From assembly GCA_014905825.1 (NCBI GenBank), contig JACGCN010000014.1:868001-932000 (forward strand): a stretch of DNA of 64,000 nt. The letters are read 5' to 3'. Position 1 is the stretch's first letter. The number at the start of each line of letters is the position of its first letter. A model generated the notes under the pieces. The model searched no databases. It saw nothing but the letters and a program-made list of their open reading frames with translations, and had not been told where the DNA came from. Below, one piece after another: positions 6,677 to 53,000 of the stretch. This DNA is from Lyophyllum atratum (Eukaryota; Basidiomycota; Agaricomycetes; Agaricales; Lyophyllaceae). Both the position numbers and the translations under genes were made by a program.

Positions 6677-7252
6677 TCTTCTGAACTACGCCCAGTTAGT
6701 GGATGTATGAGAGGGAGTTACTGAAAGATTAAATGCTAACATCGCTCCAGGAAGAACTGCGCACCGCGTGGTCATGGGATTCGGAAACTGCGACGGAGAT
6801 AAGTGTTACGTACCGTGTCGACATCTTGATCCTCTCACCGGTAGTGTCCCATTTCGAGCGGTGTCCTCCCAAGGCTACAGGATGCGATGCACATTCATAG
6901 ATCGTGGCTGTAATAGATAGTTTCTGGGTAATGTCTTGGTCTCCGCAATTGAAGGATGAGCGGGTGCATGATTACATTTCGACGGACCGTATGTCTTGTT
7001 GTGGCCCTTCCATGTGCGTTGTTCCTTCGGTTCTCCTATTTCATTCCCTACATCGCTTGTAGACGCGTCGACACGGACCTCTAGCTCCATCTCACGATCG
7101 AAAAGACTTCTCTGTGGTACCAAAATATTGAGGCCCTTGAACACAACACCTAACCACTCGACGTACCTCATACTTTCCGTTGTCCATCAGCGAACCTTCA
7201 GGAATCAGATCGCTTAGCGCAGGCCCAATCCAAGGATATGTAGAGAAAAGAA
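6677..7252. other. Intergenic, amidase 5' flank
   Basis: No supported gene. A 98-codon open frame on minus (6875-7171) has no recognisable features. The LTR mini-element inserts at the right edge. Confidence 0.5.
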
Positions 7253-7470
7253 TGTTGGAATCTCGCCCGGATTAGTTAATCAGGCATGACGACATGCTGA
7301 CTTATCATAGAAGTTTTCTTATTCAGTAAAATTTACTTACAATTTTCTACATTAATAATACAGACATAGCTAGGTATATAAACGGAAATACACTGGCCAA
7401 TCTCCTTACGAGATTGTCCACCCTCGGCTTAACCGCCCCTGTGCTCGCTATCAAGCCCGAAATCACAACA
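7253..7470 (+). repeat. 5' LTR of the mini-element
   Basis: Begins TG, ends CA, 218 bp, same as 7908..8125. A TATATAAA stretch at about 7374-7381 could be the promoter TATA box for element transcription. Confidence 0.93.
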
Positions 7471-7694: not shown

Positions 7695-7907
7695 TCCCGA
7701 GATCACTTCTCGATGACGTATCCCGAGGCCAGGGAGAGCCTCGATGATGGAAGTTGATGGTTTCCAGAGCCAGGGAGAGCTTTGACGACGCGCAATGATA
7801 GAGATTCCGGGGCCACAGAGAGCCTTGAAGACAAACTCGAATTTTTAGATATACTTTCTTTTTATTTTCTAACTCTTACTATAGTGTCATGCCAGATTAA
7901 GGGAGAG

Positions 7908-8125
7908 TGTTGGAATCTCGCCCGGATTAGTTAATCAGGCATGACGACATGCTGACTTATCATAGAAGTTTTCTTATTCAGTAAAATTTACTTACAATTT
8001 TCTACATTAATAATACAGACATAGCTAGGTATATAAACGGAAATACACTGGCCAATCTCCTTACGAGATTGTCCACCCTCGGCTTAACCGCCCCTGTGCT
8101 CGCTATCAAGCCCGAAATCACAACA
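7908..8125 (+). repeat. 3' LTR of the mini-element
   Basis: 218 bp, by eye identical to the 5' LTR, preceded directly by a purine tract and followed by the AAGAA target duplication. Confidence 0.93.
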
Positions 8126-10509: not shown

Positions 10510-12474
10510 CTATTTCGTCGTGGTCTTCTGAATGAGCTCTATCACTTTCTCTTGCGCATTGTTAGACCGCAAAATCCCCGAAAAGGTCGCCTGATTAGCA
10601 TAATCTCGAATATCTTGATGAACCTTCGTAGCCTCTATGGTCTTGTAAGTTTCTAGCGCGGTGTCGATTTGCTCCACGGTAACGGTTTTATGGGAAGGGT
10701 GTCCAAGAAAAGTTGATCCATCACGAGCGTCAGGTCGACTATGTAGCCCATGAGGCAACGCAAGACTTCAGGGCTACAAACGGCAAGTAAATAAAATAGC
10801 TCAGAGAGTGACACGCGTATGCACACACGTTCTCAGGTAGATTCCTCGGATCCAGGTTAAGAACGCTGCTGAGAGCCCGATGGCCGCAACGGCCGGAGCG
10901 GCAGCAGCGACCACAGCTGATGTTACGCTGATGATACTGCCAATCCGGTCCACGCTCTCGCTAGTGAAGAAGGTCAATATGCTGTCAGAGCGAAGCGAGG
11001 AGCTACCAATACACACAACCACGAATTGAAATCTGAAGGATCTGGCGTGACCAGTTGCACAAGAGCCTTGATCTTCCTCTGAAAACCCTCACCAGTCAAC
11101 AGCTAGAGCAGGATGGTATCGGCTCAAAACGAGTAACGAAAATGATCGCAGGCATACATTATCTGGGTCGTTGAAGTTCCAGCTTGAGGTGATATCGACG
11201 TGAATTGTGGCTAAGCATTGCTCAAGCGTTGAACCCGAAAAATTAGAACTCGATGCAAGACCCTGCCAATATTCTAGAGGTTTGTGATCAGGTTTAATTT
11301 GGCGAGCCTAAAGGAAGACAAATTACGTTTCATGCCGACTCTGTTATGGGCGGACATGGGTTAAAAGACTGAGAGGGGATAAAAACAGCAACCCACTGAA
11401 TGGAGGAACTGATTTTAGATTGGGCGCTAGCTCTCTGGGCCATCGCAGAGACGATCCAGACATCTCCTTCCACCTCGTGCTCCACGCGACCTTGAGTAAG
11501 ATCGATGAGGTTCGTCAAAGTCGATCGGTAGTCCACTGGAAAGAAGAGAACAGATATTGAACAACAGATTAACGGCGGCAAGAATGCAGATTATCAAACC
11601 AGATGTTTTCGCATAAGGAAGCGTATTCCGGAGCTTTTGCAGAGGATCCACGCAGAGATTCTCAAATTCTACATCGGCCCTTTTTAAGCAAAGATCGTTG
11701 ATATCTTGTTCCGACATGGTTTCGAGCTCTTCATCAGTCAGGTCCTCCTCCATACGACTGATGAGTTTATCAAACTTCGTGAAGACGACCACTACGGGCG
11801 CTTGTGCTATAAAGGGTTTGGCTCGTCAGGTATGCTCAAATGGAGACTACTTGTGACTTCCACCTTTCGATGCAAACTTAAGGAATTCTTCGTCACCTGT
11901 TTCGAAGACTCGACCACCAGCAAAAGGAACCTCAATACACAACCTGAATTTTATATTTGAATGAGAGTAACATCATAGAAGTCATGGCTCACCAGACGAC
12001 ATGGAGTCGGTCCTTGAGAGGCACCTCTTTCCCATGAGATCGAATAAAGCTTTTCACCTTCTCCAAGTTCGCGATTTCGCTTGGCTCGAAACCTTGGGAA
12101 TCATGAAGCACGAAACGAGGATTCTCCGGGGATATGATTTCGGTATTGATATCACATACTCCGTGTTCTCGATGCGAGACAGTCTATGCAAGACTCAGTG
12201 ACGATCTTGTGACAAAAATGGGAAGAATTACTGCGATATCGACGTTGAATGCGTGATTGATGAGGCGGGACTTTCCTACTCCAGACTAAGTATCATCGTC
12301 AGAGCAACTGTCGAGGACGACGTTAATCACAACTGACTTTGCCGACTAACAGGATTCGGAATCTACATTGATGACAATCGATAAGCAAGCACCGACGACG
12401 GATCGTCTTTGATCGCACCTTGGACACTGCTCCAATATGTTGTCCGTCGTAGGTTGCAGTGCGTGAGTACTCAT
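10510..12474 (-). CDS. G-domain (HSR1/AIG1-like) GTPase, frameshifted near the 3' end
   Basis: Exons read as 12474..12419, 12362..12338, 12285..12232, 12183..11993, 11943..11864, 11806..11600, 11535..11397, 11340..11327, 11273..11158, 11102..11017, 10981..10829, 10773..10510. The P-loop GKSGVGKS (residues 26-33) is itself split by an intron; DSQG (G3) and TKFD (G4) follow, so it should bind GTP. The C-terminal half ends with membrane-tending AAAAPAVAAIGLSAAFLTWI and the family tail ANQATFSGILRSNNAQEKV. Between LDTLPIKP and TVEQIDTALETYK (about 10,677-10,690) the frame shifts by one base in a run of four A; five A would restore it. So the last ~65 residues are out of frame as given. Function of this large Agaricomycete family is unknown. 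Exon 8 is a 14-nt microexon. Confidence 0.85.
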
Positions 12475-19266: not shown

Positions 19267-22200
19267 ATGCAGAACGCTATCGACCTCCGAAGTAAATGTA
19301 GGCACTTTCGAATTCTCATTATTGGCCGAGCAAATGCGGGCAAGACGACCATCCTGAAGAAAGTGTGCAATTCCATCGAAGATCCCGAGATCTTCAGTCC
19401 ATCCGGCAAAAAGGTAATCGTATCAGCACTCGACCGCGATTAAGCTACCTGATATCGTCATTCTTAACGTCCTTCAGCTTGATCCCGCAAACGTTGAAGG
19501 ATCAGCAGAGGTTTGACTTCTGTGTCCTTCCTTCAATTCGGTCACGCTTATTGTCTGAACGCAGCGCGGATTACATGATATCGAGAACCAACTTATATTC
19601 AAGAGCAACCCACAGTTCATTTTCCATGACTCCCGTGGATTCGAATCTGGCTCTATTGACGAAATGAAGATCGTACAATCCTTCATCAGCAAACGGGCGC
19701 AAAGCACAGTATTACCCGAACAACTTCACTCGATTTGGTGCATTGTTTCACACTTCACACGCAGCAGGTTGAAACTGACTGGATCCATCATAGGTATTGT
19801 CTGCCGACGGACACAGACAGGCCGCTATTGGAGGCTGATAAGAAGTTCTTCAATGAATATGGTAGTGGGAGTGGTGAGTGATCTCCTGTACGCCTATAGT
19901 TGAACTATACTAAGTATCTCTTTGACATCGAAGTGCCCGTCGTGGCAATTTTCACTAAGTTTGATGGCCTTGTCACAACGGTGTTCAACAATCTTCGGAA
20001 AGAGCTTGGCATCAGAGAAGCAAAAAATAAGAAGGTTCAACATGCACAGGAGAAGCTGAAGACCAATTTTGTAGAACCGCTCATGGCAACTAAATTCCAT
20101 CCATCAGATCATGTGCGACTGGACGGTTGGTTGACTTGCATGATGTATTTTTATATTTCTAACTTCTGACAAATTCTTTTTTCTTATTTTACGGTCAGAT
20201 ATGCGAAAGGCCAAGAGTAATTGTGCCCAGCTGATTGAGAAGACAGCAGATGGACTTGGCAATGACACCTTGCAGCTGTTATTTGTGTCCGTACAGCAGA
20301 ACAATATTGGACTTTGTATCCAGAAGGCAGTAAAAATGTGAGTGGCTTCTTGATTCATCTCTCATCTTTTTCTCATCACCAGCTGTTTTGTAGGTTTTAT
20401 GAATTGTTGGATGTCAGAAAAATAAAAGGTATGCACCAACCCTCACGTTTTATGGATTTGATATGTAGGGATGTTTTTAGGCCGTGAAACTTCTTTAGAG
20501 GTGTTTGTGCTGGAAATTTTTGCATGGTTCCCACATGTATGGGTATGTGGCAGCACAGTTTTGAAGTGAAACCATTTATAAAATGGCTGACAATGATACA
20601 GACTGTAGGTATCTGATTGTGAAATGCATTTTCACAAATATTGACCTAGGCTTGGGTCTGAATAACAGAATGTCAGTGTCCGATTATTCTGGTTATGTGA
20701 AGGATTTCTTATGTCAGGATTTCACTAGGTTGTAAGACATCAATATCTGTTCGAGTATAATCAAATAATTCTATTGTTCTAGGAGGTAAGGAGATTATTT
20801 TCATTTATTATTGGCATGCTCAGCATTTGATGAAAACAATTAGTATGTAAGTGATGAAAGTGATTTCCCATTCCCAGAATTACATTGATGACACATTTTA
20901 TATATAGGATGTGAGTGGGATTCATGACAGTAGTGCTCCCGTTACAATCATGCTTTCCTTTACAGAAGGTGAGGATACGTCCAAGTCAGAGCATTATTCT
21001 GGTGAGAAGTATCTGATTAATAATAGGAAGTAAGCCCCAATTTCATATCATCAAATCTGGGTCACTTATGCTGCATGACTTGAATTTGTGTGCAATTCAA
21101 ACAGCATGTAAGTTCGATTGTGTTTTTATGCCATGAATCAGTGTTCTTTTTGTACTTTGAGCCTGTTTCATGTCACTGACCACCTTGCCTGTGGCCTCCG
21201 TTCTCAACAGCCTGTCAGTGTCGTCCTTGTACTTTGAGCCTGGCTTTGTGTTACTGACCACCTTGCCTGTGACCTCCATTTCCAACAGGAGGTGAGTATC
21301 GTCCTTGTACTTTGACTCTGGTTTCACGTTACTGATCACCTTGCCTGTGACCTCCATTTTCAACAGGAGGTGAGTGTCGTCCTTGTACTTTGACTCTGGT
21401 TTCACGTTACTGATCACCTTGTCTCTGGCCTCTATTCTCAACAGCTGGTGAGTGTCGTCTTACTTTGAGCCTGGTTTCATGTAACTGACCGCCTTGCCTG
21501 TGACCTCCATTTTCAACAGGAGGTGAGTATCATCTTTGTACTTTGACTCTGGTTTCATGTTACTGACCGCCTTGCCTGTGGCCTCTATTTTCAACAGGCG
21601 GTGAGTATTGTCTTTGTACTTTGACTCTGGTTTCATGTTACTGACCGCCTTGCCTGTGGCGTCTATTTTGAACAGGAGGTGAGTGCCGTCTTTGTACTTT
21701 GAGCCTGTTTCATGTCACTGACCACGTTGCTTGTGGCCTCCATTTTCAACAGGAGGTGAGTATCGTCCTTGTACTTTGAGCCTGGTTTCATGTAATTGAC
21801 TGCCTTGCCTGTGGCCTTCAATCTCAACAGCCTGTCAGTGTCGTCCTTGTACTTTGAGCCTGGCTTTGTGTTACTGACCACCTTGCCCTATGGCCTCCAG
21901 TCTCCACAGTCTGTGAGTGTTGTCCTTGTACTTTGAGCCTGGTTTTGTATTACTAAACACCTTGTCTTGTGGCCTCCAATCTCAACAGGTTGTGGGTGTC
22001 ATCTTTGTACTTTGAGCCAGTTTCATGTGACTGATATCCCTCTCATTGTATGTGCAGATAGTAAGCATCAGCCATTGCTGTTATTTTGCATTATATTGAA
22101 TGTTTACACTTGATTCATCCACAACTTCAATGCAGTTTGTAAGTTTTTACATCATAATGATTTGTAGTTCCATCTTTGCTAAGTGATACTCACATTCTTC

Positions 22201-22685
22201 TCTACATAGTCACACAACATTCGATCTACCACTGGAATTCTCTTGAGCAAGTTCCCTGACTTGGTATGTTAATAAAATGTTTCATCAACCAATTATTGTA
22301 ACAATTCACATCAGAAGGAGTCATTGCAATCAGTCTTCGGAAAGGCGGAGCTCCTTGTTGGTATGATGTGGATCCATACCCTACACACCACTTCTAACTT
22401 TTTTGCAGTGCTGCGTATTTGTGGCATCTGCACACGAACAGATGTTTCCTCAAGCTTTCTCAGTTGCACTGGATGCATATGTGGAGTCAGCCATAAAGGA
22501 TGAGGTCAGCAAAGCACTCAGGGTCTTCATTGATAGAGGGGAGAGTTTGAACAGGATTATTGAACGGCTTGTGGAGGTCATAAAGAATAACTTTCTTCGT
22601 ATGTGGTTTCCTTTGCAATGCTCACGTACATATCCACTCATGATTCATGAATCATGGGACTCTTGGTTATATAGGCATCAACTGA
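19267..22685 (+). CDS. G-domain GTPase with a run of 22 predicted 3-nt microexons
   Basis: Ordinary exons: 19267..19413, 19478..19510, 19565..19737, 19794..19873, 19934..20125, 20199..20337, 20394..20428, 20469..20542. They give P-loop GRANAGKT (residues 20-27), HDSRGFE (G3), YCLPTDTDRP and TKFDG (G4), as in the Agaricomycete HSR1-like family. Then come 22 units of AG-NNN-GT at 20602, 20669, 20729, 20783, 20844, 20908, 20966, 21027, 21105, 21211, 21289, 21367, 21445, 21520, 21598, 21676, 21753, 21831, 21910, 21989, 22058 and 22136, then exons 22210..22263, 22315..22356, 22409..22598, 22675..22685. The total is 1,236 nt = 411 codons plus stop, one frame. The first donor after 22356 (GTTGGT) is weak. 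The C-terminal part (AFSVALDAYVESAIKDEVSK, FIDRGESLNRIIERLVEVI) is helical and unrecognised. If the microexons are not used, the alternative is a 1.67-kb intron, far longer than any other in the window apart from the transposon-filled one. Confidence 0.8.
21133..21991 (+). repeat. ~78-bp tandem repeat, about 11 units, each carrying acceptor + 3 nt + donor
   Basis: Acceptor ends fall at 21210, 21288, 21366, 21444, 21519, 21597, 21675, 21752, 21830, 21909, 21988, so spacing is 75-79 bp. Each unit has donor (mostly GTGAGT), a CTGAC-like branch site, a pyrimidine-rich stretch and CAACAG. The three bases after CAACAG vary (GAG in five units). Units differ by scattered substitutions, so the array is not brand new. 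Confidence 0.93.
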
Positions 22686-23355: not shown

Positions 23356-24248
23356 CTACCTATTGGTTGTGGCTATAAGAGGGAAGGAACAAAGGCACAC
23401 TAGTAGCTGCTTACTGCGCTTCATGAAGAACTGTACACCAAGATGTTGGGACTGCGCGGAAGTAAACATGATGTGATGTCCCGTTTCGACGCAGTCTCCA
23501 AGTGCAATGATCAAGCCAAGGTAAATGATGACGGTCGAACTTGATAATTCCAGAGCTGAGGGCTTAAACTTGGAAAGCCTTGTATTGTTTGGATCATCTG
23601 CGCGACCGTCACTCCTCATCAGTCACTCGAACGAATGTCTCCAAAAGTCACGCGCTCACCTCAAAAACGCATTCCAAACTCGCTACAGCTTTCCCCACTT
23701 GACCTGCCTACGACTGCGCCGTTTATGGATACAAGTAACGAGACTTGCGAGCTCGCTGTCGGTGTTTATGGTTTGCGATCGTACACGCCGTACACGCCTT
23801 CAGTCATTTGATCATATGGACGAGTCCCTGCCGCTGGAGTTCCGTTTGCCCCGTGGAGACAGGATGGTGTGCACGAAACCATCTTCGTGGGCATAGCGGG
23901 GGGTGGGTATTGGTATAAGGAAGTCATCGGTAAATAGGAGTCCGTACCCGGTGAGCGGGTCGAAGACGATGGTTATACCTTGGGTATCGCCGCATCGTCG
24001 TCCGGTAGGGAATTAGTTTGGGATTGGGTTGAGTTCGACTGGGCACCATGAATATGGTCAAGGATCGGTCGACGGTGGGTGAGCAGAGGGTTGCAGACCT
24101 AGAAAAAGGCGAGCGATTCAGCGGGACCTGAGTAGCTCGTAGTCGAAAAGGAGAGTGAGTGTAAGGCATTAAGCATTTCATTCCCTGCCAAAATATCTGA
24201 CATCCGACATCCACCGTATAAAAAGAAAGCCACTCCCCACGCGCCCGA
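23356..24248. other. No supported gene
   Basis: A plus-strand open frame of 123 codons (23,525-23,896) has no recognisable motif. The right part is the 3' flank of the J-domain gene. Confidence 0.4.
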
Positions 24249-44061: not shown

Positions 44062-47000
44062 TTACATTTGAGGTTCGATAACGGCCTCTCCATATTGGTT
44101 CTTGAAGAATATGACGTCTCCCTCGCTTTCGACGAACGTGCATTGAGTAAATGATCGCCACAAAGCATATAGCGCAGGCTGGTCCAAGTGTTTAGATCGA
44201 AACTGAGAAGAATTTGCGCCTACTAACCGTAGAATCATAATTATAGTATTCCCCGAGGACTGGTTTGATCGCCTCTGTTACCTGTGGAAGATTATCTAAC
44301 AGGCAATTTTCCATCAAAGTGGCGACCTGGAGAACTGCATCAGTGACGTACAGAATGGTATCGTTGCAAAGAAGTGGTGGGCGAGATGATCGGTGCTGAT
44401 CTGGTATGTACAAAGACATTTATTAGCGGAAGACAAGGGTCCGCTCAGATCGCATTTGACAACGTACGTGGTGGAAGAAAAATCGCCCCACCCAACCAAA
44501 TAAGGGTCGGTCTACGGTTGCTAGAGCTCCGCGGGCAAAAGTCCACTGATCCTGGAAGGCCCTTAGCAACACAAAAGTGTGGGGTAGCCAGCAGGGCTGG
44601 CTGCGCAGAAGGCAGATCGACGACGGCGACGCGTCGACAACGACAGAGATCTTCACGGTCACGACATCACGACATCACGATACGTAGATTAGATTAGATA
44701 TCCCATCTACCTCATGTTTCCCATCTCCTCATGTTCCCCATATTTTCGGCTCTCGTTTTCGGTCTCGTATCATTCCCATTCCCATTCGCATTCGTGTCTA
44801 CGTGTACTACGCTACGCATACGAATATATCTCGTTTTGCTTCTCTTTTCGTTCGCGCTCGTTCCCTCTCGTCTCGCCGCTTACCCGCCATCGACTGTGCG
44901 GTCCGGATTCTTTGTCCCTCGTCCTCGCACCCTTTGGAGATCCCACATCTGGAGCCCACCGCGAGGGGACAAAAATTGTCGGAGCCCTCATCGATTCCCG
45001 TTCTGTAAACCGCCGTTTCCGTATTATCCATCATTTCTTTCGGTCAACCGCCGAAAGCCCCGTCGAAGAGAGGCAAAGGGCGCGCTCCGTCACCGCCGCC
45101 GACTAGAATCCAGCCGCATCGCAACGCAGTCACCGGATCCTCAGCAAGCCGTCCCAGACATCCACCTCTTCCCCTCCGACCACTTTACCTATTCCCCGAC
45201 GTTGTTTCCTCGCCAGCTACTATCGACCTCAGCGCCGCGACTCAAACATCAAAGACACCAGAAGAATTACGTAATCCGACACGACCGCCAACACCAGCCC
45301 TCGAAGGGACACCAAGACCTCTATCCTCAACACCATCCTCACCACTCTCATCACCGACTCCATTACCAACATCACCATCACCTCCACGTACACCGACACC
45401 AAGAACACCGACACCACCACCGCCGTCGCCACAAATGGCAACGATACCGACGCCGAAAGGCATTGCCGGCATGCCGGTACCAGGAACAAAACGCGCGCCA
45501 TACTTCGATGGGAAGGATCCTAGCGAGCTTCTTGAATTCTTCGACGAATTTGACGAGCTGGCGAAGGATTGTGCACTGACAAATGCAGAGAAAGTAAAGA
45601 TGGTGGTTAAGTATGCTAACACAAAGACGAAGAAGTTCTGGGCCAGCTTACCGGGCTATGAAGAACAGGCCTATGCTACATTGAAGAACAAGATTCTCGA
45701 CACGTATCCTGGAGCGAAGAAGGGGGAAAGGTATACAAGAAAGGATTTAGAACGTATCATCCGTCGATATGAAGCTCACCGTATTAAGACAGAAGCAGAT
45801 ATCATCGGATACTACCAGGAATTTCGCCCGGTCGCCGTCACTCTCGAGACCGACGGTCAGATCAGCGCTAACGAGAAGAATCGCATGTTCTGGGAAGGAC
45901 TGCACAAGAGCGCACAGAAGGCGATCAAGAAACGACTCGAGGTCAAGGAGGGGACGGCGTACTCGCGTTCGAAGGTCCCGGATATGGAGAAAGTTGTTGA
46001 GGCAGGGCGAGAGGTGTTTGCAGATGATGCATTCGATGCTGAGAACAGGAAGGGGAAGGCGAAGAAGAGAGGGAAGCGTCGGGATAGGGATTCGTCGAGT
46101 GAGGAGAGCAGCGAGGAGAGCAGTAGCGAGGAGAGCGAGAGCGAGGAGTCATCATCAGAAAGTGAGGAGGAGGATCGGAAGCGGAGGAAGAAGTCGAAGA
46201 AGAAGAAGAGGGAGAGCGGGCGGCGGGAGGTGGCGACGAGGAAGGTGGTGGTCAAGGAGAGCGGACGCAAGGAGATGGTGGATGAGATCGATGAGTTATC
46301 GAGACGGCTTGGAGGGATGAAGGTTGGCGACAGTGCGTATGCAGCCAGTTACGTCAAACTCGCAGTTCTGTCACCTGCAGCGGCTCAGCTCCTTCCGTCC
46401 CCCTGGCAACCGGTATCCCCTACGACTGTCACAGCTGCAGCGCCGGTATATCAACCACCTCAGAACCATCAGCTACCCCAGCAACATCACTATCCGTATC
46501 AGCCCCAGCATCAACAGTGGAACTGTGGTGGTGGAGCACGGGGATTCCAAGGGCGTGGAGGATATGGCCACGGAGGACATGGAGGTCATGGTCATGCTCC
46601 CAGCGCACCGCACGACTCCAATGGCACGTGCTACTTCTGTCGAGGGATGGGGCACATCTCGCGTAACTGTCCCGTCGCCGGCGAGCATCTTCGAGCCGGA
46701 CATATTCGCTACGACGGAGCTGTATGGGTTTGGGCAGAAAGTGGAGAGCGTATCCGACACTATCCTGGGGGAATTCGAGCGGCGGTCGAGGAGCGATATG
46801 GGGTTCTACCAGTACCGAACGGAGGAGGTGGTCCAGCTCAACCACAACCACCGCCGCCAGCCGTGGCCGGTGGTAATTTTCTTCAAGTGTTCGTACCAGA
46901 GGCGGAGTCATGTGCGATTATCGAGGATGTTGACGAGGAGGTGGTGGTGGCGGTTACCGAAGAGTGGAAGTGGGGAGATGGTGGACGACAGGGTGTGGAG

Positions 47001-50000: not shown

Positions 50001-53000
50001 GACGAGATGGCTGGGGTGGAGTTGCCATGGTCTGAGGAGAATGAGCGGCGGGAGGTGGAGCTGAAGGAGATCAAGACGTACCTGACAGAGCTGAAGAAGC
50101 CCAAGTTCGACGCCATCACGCTCAAACGATTCTTAAATCGCGCATGCAAGTTCTTCGTCCGTGGTGGTCGTCTGTGGCGCAAGGAGAACGGTGGGAGACA
50201 CCAGCTTGTTGTTTGGAGGGGGGATAGGCTTCGCCATCTGCGCGCAGCTCACGACGAGCTCGGACATCGTGGACAGTACGCTACCCGTCGCACAATCGCG
50301 GATCGCTTCTGGTGGCCAGCGCTCGACGACGACGTCAAGTGGTATCTTGAAACCTGTCATGCCTGTCAGTTGCGCTCGCTCGAGAAAGTCATACTACCAC
50401 CCACCGTTTCGATTCCTGCTGGACTCTTCGCCAAGATGTATGCTGATACGATGCACCTACCGACGTCGAACGGGTACAAGTACCTCGCGCAAGGCCGTTG
50501 CAGTCTGATTAGTTGGGCGGAGTGGAGGAAGTTGAGGAAGGAGAACGGGAAGGCACTGGGGTCGTTCCTGTTTGAGGAGGTGATGTGTAGGTGGGGGGCG
50601 ATAGAGGAGATCGTGGTCGATAACGGGACGCCGTGGGTTGCTGCACTCGAATGGCTGGCCGAAAAATACAACATCCGTCATATTCGCATCTCGGCCTACA
50701 ACTCGCAGTCCAACGGCGTCGTGGAGACGGCACACCGGCCCATTCGGGACTCGCTAGTGAAGATCTGTGAGGGAGATATGCGTAAGTGGTCCAACCACGT
50801 CTCCTACATCTTCTGGGCGGACAGAATTACCACTCGAAAGCGATACGGACACTCACCTTTCTTCGGCGCTACGGGAACCGAACCCCTCCTACCCTTCGAC
50901 ATCACAGAGGCCACATTCCTGTTCCCTGATTTCTCGTCTAAACTGTCCGACGCCGAGCTTATCACCAACCGCGCTATCCAGCTGGAACGTCGTGATGAGG
51001 ATCTCGCGCTTATCCACAACCGAGTACTGGCTCACCGGTATAAATCCATTGCCGACTTCGAGAAACACCACCAGAACGTCATACACGATTACAATTTCGT
51101 GCCGGGCGAGCTCGTCATGGTCCTGAACAAGAAAATTGAGCCCGATGTTGGCAAAAAGTGCCGGCCTCGTTATTTCGGTCCTATGGTCGTCGCGCAGCGC
51201 CTCAGGAGTGGAGCATACCGCCTCGCGGAAGTCAACGGCGCCCTATCCAGACTCAAATTCGCGGCTTTTCGTCTGATTCCGTACCGCGCCCGCTCCAAGG
51301 AGATTGTCGAAGTAACCGAGTATGTTGATGCCGCAGATTTGGCGGGGATAGAGGATGACGATTGAGGAGGTTCCTTGGGTTGGGGGATCAACCAGGGATG
51401 GTTGATATTTGAAAGTGTGGAGGAGATGTGGGGTAGCCAGCAGGGCTGGCTGCGCAGAAGGCAGATCGACGACGGCGACGCGTCGACAACGACAGAGATC
51501 TTCACGGTCACGACATCACGACATCACGATACGTAGATTAGATTAGATATCCCATCTACCTCATGTTTCCCATCTCCTCATGTTCCCCATATTTTCGGCT
51601 CTCGTTTTCGGTCTCGTATCATTCCCATTCCCATTCGCATTCGTGTCTACGTGTACTACGCTACGCATACGAATATATCTCGTTTTGCTTCTCTTTTCGT
51701 TCGCGCTCGTTCCCTCTCGTCTCGCCGCTTACCCGCCATCGACTGTGCGGTCCGGATTCTTTGTCCCTCGTCCTCGCACCCTTTGGAGATCCCACAAAAG
51801 AACGAGGTCATCCAACCGAGGCACACCTTGCGGTAATATGGGATTGTCGGATCGCTGTGCTGAAGATAGGTAAACATAACGATCCTGTCAGAATAGTCAG
51901 ACGTCAGTAAGGAAGGGGGGCTTGACAGGCTGCCGCATCAGGCTTACCAATTGTGCGCGACCTAAGAATGGATGTTAATAAATGTTCGACGTCAGATGTC
52001 AGGAAACGACTACGGACTAGCCACGGAAGAAAGTAATAACACCATAGCGAAGACGAACCCGCCCTGTAGGTGTAGATCGCAAGGAGAGTGAACATGATAC
52101 CCATGGCTATGTTGGACACGATTATTGATCGACCTAGCGTGATACAGTCAACACAAGCTCCCTAGAACGATTGTTATACCCTCATACGTTGCTCTGGTTT
52201 GAATAGCAAGGACGACGGCTTATAATGCTACAGTGCAATCAGTCAGAATCCCAAGATGGACTTAGGCTACGACTCACGCTGGTGCCGGGCGGATACCTTG
52301 GATTTCCTTTTCGATTATGTCTGAAGTAGAGTGATGAACTGAGACGCAGTATCGAGATTCTTGAACAACAGGGATTGCGCACATGAGATAAAGTTGGAAA
52401 CCACTGGCAGGTGATCAATGGTAACAACGAGCTGTTCATTGAATGGGAAAGATCGCACTCACAAAAATTGACGTACAAACATCTTAAAAAGTGTAAACGC
52501 GGGCGTCTCTTCCAGAATTTCGGCATAATCCATGCGGACCGCAACTTTTCCGTCAGCGAGCTTGAAATCTTTTCGTGTGGCCGGGATATATGTCTCGTCT
52601 CGTTCAATGTTATTCGTCGATTTCTGCGGCAGTTGCGGATGAGCTTCAGGAGGAAGAGCGAAACGTCGTCAGCGTACGTGGTGGGTACGATGTGTTGCGC
52701 GCCAAGCGTAAAATGGCGTTAGGACAGACGTATGGAGTATGATGCCAATCACAGCGTTCACCCACGGGTACGGTGATAGAGCCTCATGGCCGGCCTATCT
52801 CGACATAAGTAGAATACTCAATCGCTGGTGTATCACAAGCGGACGTGTACCTCATGTCCTGATTGCAGTAAACCTTTAGTATCCCAAGCGACCAGATTCA
52901 GATAGATAACATACCTAGACACCATATACCCGCAAAAGTTACACCTTGCCAACCCCAATAGAGGGTCCACAGTGTCCCTCGTACCAGACTTCGAGTCAAG

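Follow-up and report, generated by a model that had tools for sequence, protein, structure and literature searches.

We find that a GTPase gene carries a run of 22 consecutive units in which a splice acceptor and the following splice donor are separated by exactly one codon, and that four more arrays with this layout occur in the same genome. Judged from the sequence, these arrays very probably consist of working short introns between predicted exons of 3 nt. In-phase 3-nt microexons, the reading put forward in a preliminary description of this DNA, remain the best explanation, which now draws on the four additional arrays and on conserved splice signals. The first array lies in the stretch of DNA under analysis (the window, 64 kb, C46:868,001–932,000), and its coordinates are given as positions within that stretch. 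The genome searched comprises 64.8 Mb in 151 contigs, of which C46, C76, C24, and C81 are referred to below. Judging by the size of its introns and the style of its genes, the DNA is likely to be from a filamentous fungus, probably one that forms mushrooms.

A scripted pattern scan identifies 22 YAG-NNN-GTnnG units between 20,543 and 22,209, all with an acceptor-to-donor distance of exactly 3 nt; each of the other spacings from 0 to 30 yields between zero and two matches in that interval. There are no spacing-3 sites on the opposite strand of the interval and no chains of three or more spacing-3 units elsewhere in the window on either strand. The 23 introns of the array are 51–103 nt long, and all 23 have GT-AG ends and a G at donor position +5. 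In our hand-built model, the frame is at phase 0 on leaving the exon that ends at 20,542, at each triplet, and again at 22,210; translated in order, the triplets read TNVEYDKEHPEELEAEEPSVIF. The number of units, the uniform +5 G with intervening lengths of 51–103 nt, and the preserved frame had all been proposed in the preliminary description and are borne out. It had also placed the first nine and the last two units outside the tandem repeat and argued that duplication alone could not explain the pattern. Tandem Repeats Finder delimits a 78-bp repeat that leaves these 11 units outside (nine leading and two trailing), where 2,000 dinucleotide shuffles produce 0.34 units on average and never more than four. 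The shuffles and the table of spacings together rule out a chance origin of this array.

The gene is modeled by hand as eight ordinary exons, the 22 microexons, and three further exons (Table 1), the microexons totaling 66 nt and the eight exons upstream of them 843 nt. The earlier label "GTPase" is founded on motifs seen in the translation: GRANAGKT, HDSRGFE, and FTKFD correspond to GxxxxGK[ST], DxxG, and [NT]KxD, which we take to be the motif definition of a TRAFAC-type GTPase. In a Pfam scan of residues 1–337 of the model (E ≤ 0.001), only Arf and MMR_HSR1 are reported, both just under their curated cut-offs (20.8 vs. 22.3 bits and 20.3 vs. 21.9 bits, respectively), and neither NACHT nor ankyrin domains are found. 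The acceptor of ordinary exon 8 was chosen because the copies on C46 and C76 (see below) both stay open with it. The last modeled exon on C46 is 20 nt shorter than its C76 counterpart and out of frame, and the modeled reading therefore stops early, at ~22,503; the last modeled exon on C76 is open. The ordinary exons of these GTPase genes are under constraint, with dN/dS of 0.031/0.112 between C46 and C76 and 0.148/0.471 between paralogs. Some gene copies may be inactive, since the last exon is off frame on C46 and the second exon is interrupted on C81.

Table 1. Modeled exons and tandem repeat of the array-bearing gene (positions within the window)
Feature	Position	Strand	Source
Ordinary exon 1, with start codon ATG and the P-loop motif GRANAGKT	19267..19413	+	hand-built model
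Ordinary exon 2	19478..19510	+	hand-built model
Ordinary exon 3, HDSRGFE	19565..19737	+	hand-built model
Ordinary exon 4	19794..19873	+	hand-built model
Ordinary exon 5, FTKFD	19934..20125	+	hand-built model
Ordinary exon 6	20199..20337	+	hand-built model
Ordinary exon 7	20394..20428	+	hand-built model
Ordinary exon 8, phase 0 at its end	20499..20542	+	hand-built model
Microexon 1 ACT (T)	20602..20604	+	pattern scan, hand-built model
Microexon 2 AAT (N)	20669..20671	+	pattern scan, hand-built model
Microexon 3 GTT (V)	20729..20731	+	pattern scan, hand-built model
Microexon 4 GAG (E)	20783..20785	+	pattern scan, hand-built model
Microexon 5 TAT (Y)	20844..20846	+	pattern scan, hand-built model
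Microexon 6 GAT (D)	20908..20910	+	pattern scan, hand-built model
Microexon 7 AAG (K)	20966..20968	+	pattern scan, hand-built model
Microexon 8 GAA (E)	21027..21029	+	pattern scan, hand-built model
Microexon 9 CAT (H)	21105..21107	+	pattern scan, hand-built model
78-bp tandem repeat, unit = one intron + one codon	21150..22034	+	Tandem Repeats Finder
Microexon 10 CCT (P)	21211..21213	+	pattern scan, hand-built model
Microexon 11 GAG (E)	21289..21291	+	pattern scan, hand-built model
Microexon 12 GAG (E)	21367..21369	+	pattern scan, hand-built model
Microexon 13 CTG (L)	21445..21447	+	pattern scan, hand-built model
Microexon 14 GAG (E)	21520..21522	+	pattern scan, hand-built model
Microexon 15 GCG (A)	21598..21600	+	pattern scan, hand-built model
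Microexon 16 GAG (E)	21676..21678	+	pattern scan, hand-built model
Microexon 17 GAG (E)	21753..21755	+	pattern scan, hand-built model
Microexon 18 CCT (P)	21831..21833	+	pattern scan, hand-built model
Microexon 19 TCT (S)	21910..21912	+	pattern scan, hand-built model
Microexon 20 GTT (V)	21989..21991	+	pattern scan, hand-built model
Microexon 21 ATA (I)	22058..22060	+	pattern scan, hand-built model
Microexon 22 TTT (F)	22136..22138	+	pattern scan, hand-built model
Ordinary exon 3' of array, phase 0, SHNIRSTTGILLSKFPDL	22210..22263	+	hand-built model
Ordinary exon	22315..22360	+	hand-built model
Last modeled exon, C46	22409..22598	+	hand-built model

A second copy of the locus lies on C76 and, in a hand-built model, runs in frame through 37 microexons (TNAKYDKEHAPLLAAMAVALAVAAEEEVAVVAESVIF). 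Upstream of the gene, the two copies share 96.4% identity across 3,553 aligned positions, and downstream they share 94.3% across a stretch of 1,554; the C76 copy is probably the other haplotype of the C46 locus. Across the 12 introns that can be aligned between the two copies, 39 of 690 interior letters have changed, compared with none of the 60 letters in the GT, +5, and AG columns. Two of 33 letters differ in the 11 alignable nonrepeat triplets. For one of the 12, the copies disagree in intron length by 1 nt, a difference that would break the frame if the region were left unspliced.

We located related GTPase genes by a protein search of the same genome and found long runs in three of the six stretches fetched (L022, L023, and L024), and none in the other three (L025, L026, and L027, the last being the stretch that follows the window). 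The array in L023 (C24b) has 40 units, one of them with a GC donor. The array in L022 (C24a) has 18, including one with CT in place of the GT donor and one without the +5 G, and that in L024 (C81) has 41, its 42 array introns all being GT-AG with a +5 G. C24a and C81 probably represent two haplotypes of one locus. All three arrays are built of a 69-bp unit distinct from the 78-bp unit of C46. The layout of the ordinary exons is common to both lineages: The last three exons before the array have phases 2, 1, and 0, and the array is entered at phase 0 in C46, C76, C24b, C24a, and C81 alike. On the 3' side of the C24-type arrays, we read a short phase-0 exon followed by a 57-nt exon. There are thus five arrays in three gene lineages, with 22 (C46), 37 (C76), 40 (C24b), 18 (C24a), and 41 (C81) units. 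All 158 triplets are 3 nt long, at phase 0 on both sides, and free of stops, and 155 of the 158 units match the strict YAG-NNN-GTnnG pattern. The family members without arrays, in L025, in L026, and at 12,168–11,992 (–) in the window, are too distant for alignment at the array position; the last, a distant GTPase relative without a microexon chain, has a counterpart on C76.

A 24-base word of the C46 unit, allowing up to three mismatches, occurs at 22 places genome-wide, on C46 and C76 only. A two-unit query of the 69-bp repeat has at least 41 matches genome-wide, and those among the matches listed are on C24 and C81 only. As short exact patterns, consensus-flanked GAT, CGT, and GAG (three of the 61 sense triplets) give 64, 35, and 59 matches genome-wide, and two or more such matches inside 1 kb are found in the five arrays only.

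We also note several insertions and repeats at these loci and in the window. The C76 copy has ~1.1 kb (L009 7311–8450) that is extra relative to window ~23,744–23,750; its ends are mutually inverted repeats (CCCAGTGAGAACGGGC...), which gives it the look of a DNA transposon of small size. In the C81 GTPase copy, exon 2 is split by a ~6.5-kb insertion with inverted-repeat-like ends (L024/L025, C81 ~71.8–78.3 kb). In the window, identical 370-bp direct repeats at 44,578–44,947 and 51,427–51,796 (~6.8 kb apart) fit the termini of an LTR retrotransposon, and 222-bp direct repeats of 99.55% identity lie at 7249–7470 and 7904–8125, 655 bp apart.

Among the 163 introns of the five arrays, 161 are GT-AG, one has a GC donor, and one has CT; 162 have a G at +5. 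Their lengths are not tied to the codon: 22 of the 41 introns in C24b are not divisible by three. Mean donor scores per array are 5.9–7.5 bits, vs. 6.4 in ordinary introns (n = 21) and 0.7 for all GT. Mean acceptor scores are 5.2–5.4 bits, vs. 5.7 in the ordinary introns (n = 21) and 1.1 for all AG, with the acceptors of nonrepeat units being weaker (4.45 vs. 5.69 bits in ordinary introns). The branch-point motif CTRAY is present in 32 of the 41 C24b introns (5.3 in shuffles) and is enriched in all five arrays; it is found in 10 of 21 ordinary introns and in one of 11 introns beside the nonrepeat units of C46 (shuffle mean 1.6). The units of C24b are old, with a mean pairwise intron identity of 0.65, and 577 of their 2287 interior intron letters (25%) are off consensus, vs. 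one of 194 letters at GT, +5, and AG (nominal binomial P = 2e-23, which is indicative only, as the units share descent). The branch-point columns of C24b are off consensus in 5% (C), 3% (T), 3% (A), and 11% (Y) of cases, and R is also well kept. In the other four arrays, the GT/+5/AG letters off consensus number 0/200, 0/125, 0/50, and 2/85, compared with 10%–13% in the interior.

These patterns bear on whether the arrays are a noncoding minisatellite, or decayed exons, within a single intron, with a splice-like motif copied along with each unit. Much of the arrays is tandem repeat, and copy number differs between the probable haplotypes, as such an origin would have it. The 11 nonrepeat units of C46, however, have nothing in common except their splice-site layout; the C24b units keep their splice letters at 65% mean identity; and other loci show the identical layout with a different repeat. 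We consider this origin very unlikely, and the decayed exons mentioned in the preliminary description are weakened further by the unchanged splice columns between C46 and C76.

The preliminary description had also raised the alternative that a single long intron is excised in steps, in a recursive-like manner, with the NNN as staging sites and nothing left in the mRNA. The phases of the flanking exons match, and a product with 0 nt would keep the frame too. Zero-nucleotide (recursive) splice sites have AG|GT junctions, and here the likeness ends with the stepwise removal across a region: AG directly abutting GT (k = 0) has a count of 0 in the C46 array, as in the other four. Moreover, use of AG-NNN-GT leaves the NNN in the product except when a unit is skipped. 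This alternative is therefore the weaker one, and we regard it as unlikely.

Still less probable, and in our view highly improbable, is a coding repeat in antisense. With sizes of 78 bp and 69 bp, the units contain complete codons only, and the opposite strand can stay open: Its longest stop-free stretches are 446 amino acids in C81, 173 in C24a, 150 in C76, and 120 in C46; the length reached in C81 is due to the 69-bp unit holding no partial codon. However, C24b has at most 86 amino acids, units whose length is not divisible by three interrupt the antisense frame, and an antisense frame offers no explanation for the conservation of GT, branch point, and AG. We therefore rejected the antisense ORF. 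Structured RNAs encoded in the introns were likewise rejected: The Rfam matches are subthreshold (snoZ196, 27.5 vs. 55 bits; NEAT1_2 twice, 24.8 and 21.3 vs. 60 bits) and are taken as chance.

The triplets themselves add less. Column frequencies predict 0.5–2.7 stops per array (154 of 158 units, GTC-starting donors being left out), including 1.1 in C24b, where none is observed; stop avoidance is weak evidence because the units are not independent and few stops are expected. The constant length of three is also weak evidence, because only ~1.4 indels are expected in the 120 exon letters of C24b, as estimated from 29 distinct gap spans in its introns.

Unit number differs within both probable haplotype pairs (22/37 in C46/C76 and 18/41 in C24a/C81). 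Units 1–4 and 16–18 of C24a match the first and last units of C81 in order and with identical codons. Among C81 unit pairs that are eight apart, seven have a flank identity of ≥0.95, and the codon is identical in all seven, which indicates block duplication of intron and codon together. In C24b, C24a, and C81, CTA is the last codon and TTT is the second unit, and from these shared positions, part of the array is probably older than the paralog split (dS 0.47).

Growth of this kind can be set against an introner-like insertion, in which copies of one intron were put into an existing exon at successive codon boundaries. Introner-like elements are near-identical introns found in many copies dispersed over many genes. 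The similar introns and diverse triplets seen here recall them, but the copies are found only in tandem and in one gene family, the unit not being found beyond these loci in the genome searches (for the 69-bp query, among the matches listed). The constant spacing of exactly 3 would also be unexplained, and both the unequal peptide lengths within the haplotype pairs and the shared codons of the C81 block duplicates speak against such insertion, which we hold to be very improbable.

Per-column diversity was calculated over 10 C46, 25 C76, 37 C24b, 14 C24a, and 37 C81 units. Mean diversity is 0.55–0.63 in the triplets and 0.15–0.34 in the introns of the five arrays, and no three-column intron window reaches the diversity of the triplets (0/73, 0/73, 0/64, 0/64, and 0/64 in C46, C76, C24b, C24a, and C81, respectively). 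In C24b, the third codon position does not stand out: Its diversity is matched in 24 of 66 intron columns. Three readings of this contrast remain: diversifying selection on the residues, homogenization of the introns with each codon kept by selection, or constraint on the introns with the codons free. Under the first two, the triplets must be translated. The orthologous nonrepeat triplets of C46 and C76 change at the intron rate (2/33 vs. 39/690), which counts against fast codon change, and we do not adopt diversifying selection as a settled claim.

If the arrays are spliced as one-codon exons, each unit would be an ordinary short spliceosomal intron (51–103 nt in C46) together with one codon. 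Recognition across the intron is usual for short fungal introns, and the array introns would be recognized in this way and taken out singly; after excision of a neighboring intron, the splice site that follows would adjoin an exon of normal length, and a 3-nt exon would then be no obstacle. Because every array intron is at phase 0, the frame would be kept whether any number of units is used or skipped. We lean toward full inclusion of the triplets as the predicted main isoform. Combinatorial use, which is a sub-case of the one-codon-exon explanation and not separate from it, would have real exons that are variably skipped, giving linkers of 0 to 22 (or 37, 40, 41) residues. It is plausible, although we would not bet on it: With all triplets at phase 0 any skip is in frame, and the codon-sized microexons of Tuber are described as alternatively spliced (PMC4986451), but the splice sites in the arrays match ordinary introns in strength, from which heavy skipping is not predicted. 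The arrays may lengthen and shorten through unequal exchange of intron-plus-codon units, each gain or loss adding or removing one residue in the linker between the GTPase-containing and C-terminal parts. More speculatively, the arrays could be a device for single-codon diversification, in which units are freely gained and lost, splice choice might add further variation to the linker, and codons are kept or driven diverse amid homogenized introns, giving a hypervariable GTPase peptide that may serve to recognize self or other organisms.

Micro-exon genes (MEGs) of Schistosoma have many symmetrical microexons in series, of ~6–36 nt, which account for the larger part of the coding sequence and can be skipped in frame. 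The serial, symmetrical arrangement is alike, but here every microexon has 3 nt, and together they constitute a single insert in a gene that is ordinary elsewhere. Plants and animals have single very small exons, down to 1 nt; spliceosomes there likewise join exons of a few bases, but those exons are isolated, compared with runs of tens here. The preliminary description knew of no described gene with such a run. Codon-sized microexons are, however, already known as a kind: A 2012 study, as described in PMC4986451, reported that a fast-evolving family of fungal NTPase genes in Tuber contains codon-sized exons in runs. The likeness lies in the run of codon-sized exons, a feature to which all 158 triplets of the five arrays conform. 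Going by that description, the genes in Tuber are of the NACHT-ankyrin type, whereas ours encode a small GTPase-like protein in arrays that are partly tandem repeats and vary in copy number between probable haplotypes. Apparently new are the GTPase family, to our knowledge the length of the arrays and the change in unit number within the probable haplotype pairs, and the finding that in each of the five arrays the triplets exceed every stretch of intron in variability.

If spliced in this way, series of as many as 41 exons of 3 nt each would put the ability of the spliceosome to find exons to an extreme test, since with exons of 3 nt, exon definition is barely possible and adjacent introns cannot be occupied simultaneously. 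Ranging from 18 to 41 units and of very different divergence, the arrays would provide a natural series for splice order, fidelity, and frame-safe skipping, and they point to a route by which a protein may grow by single residues, through intron duplication.
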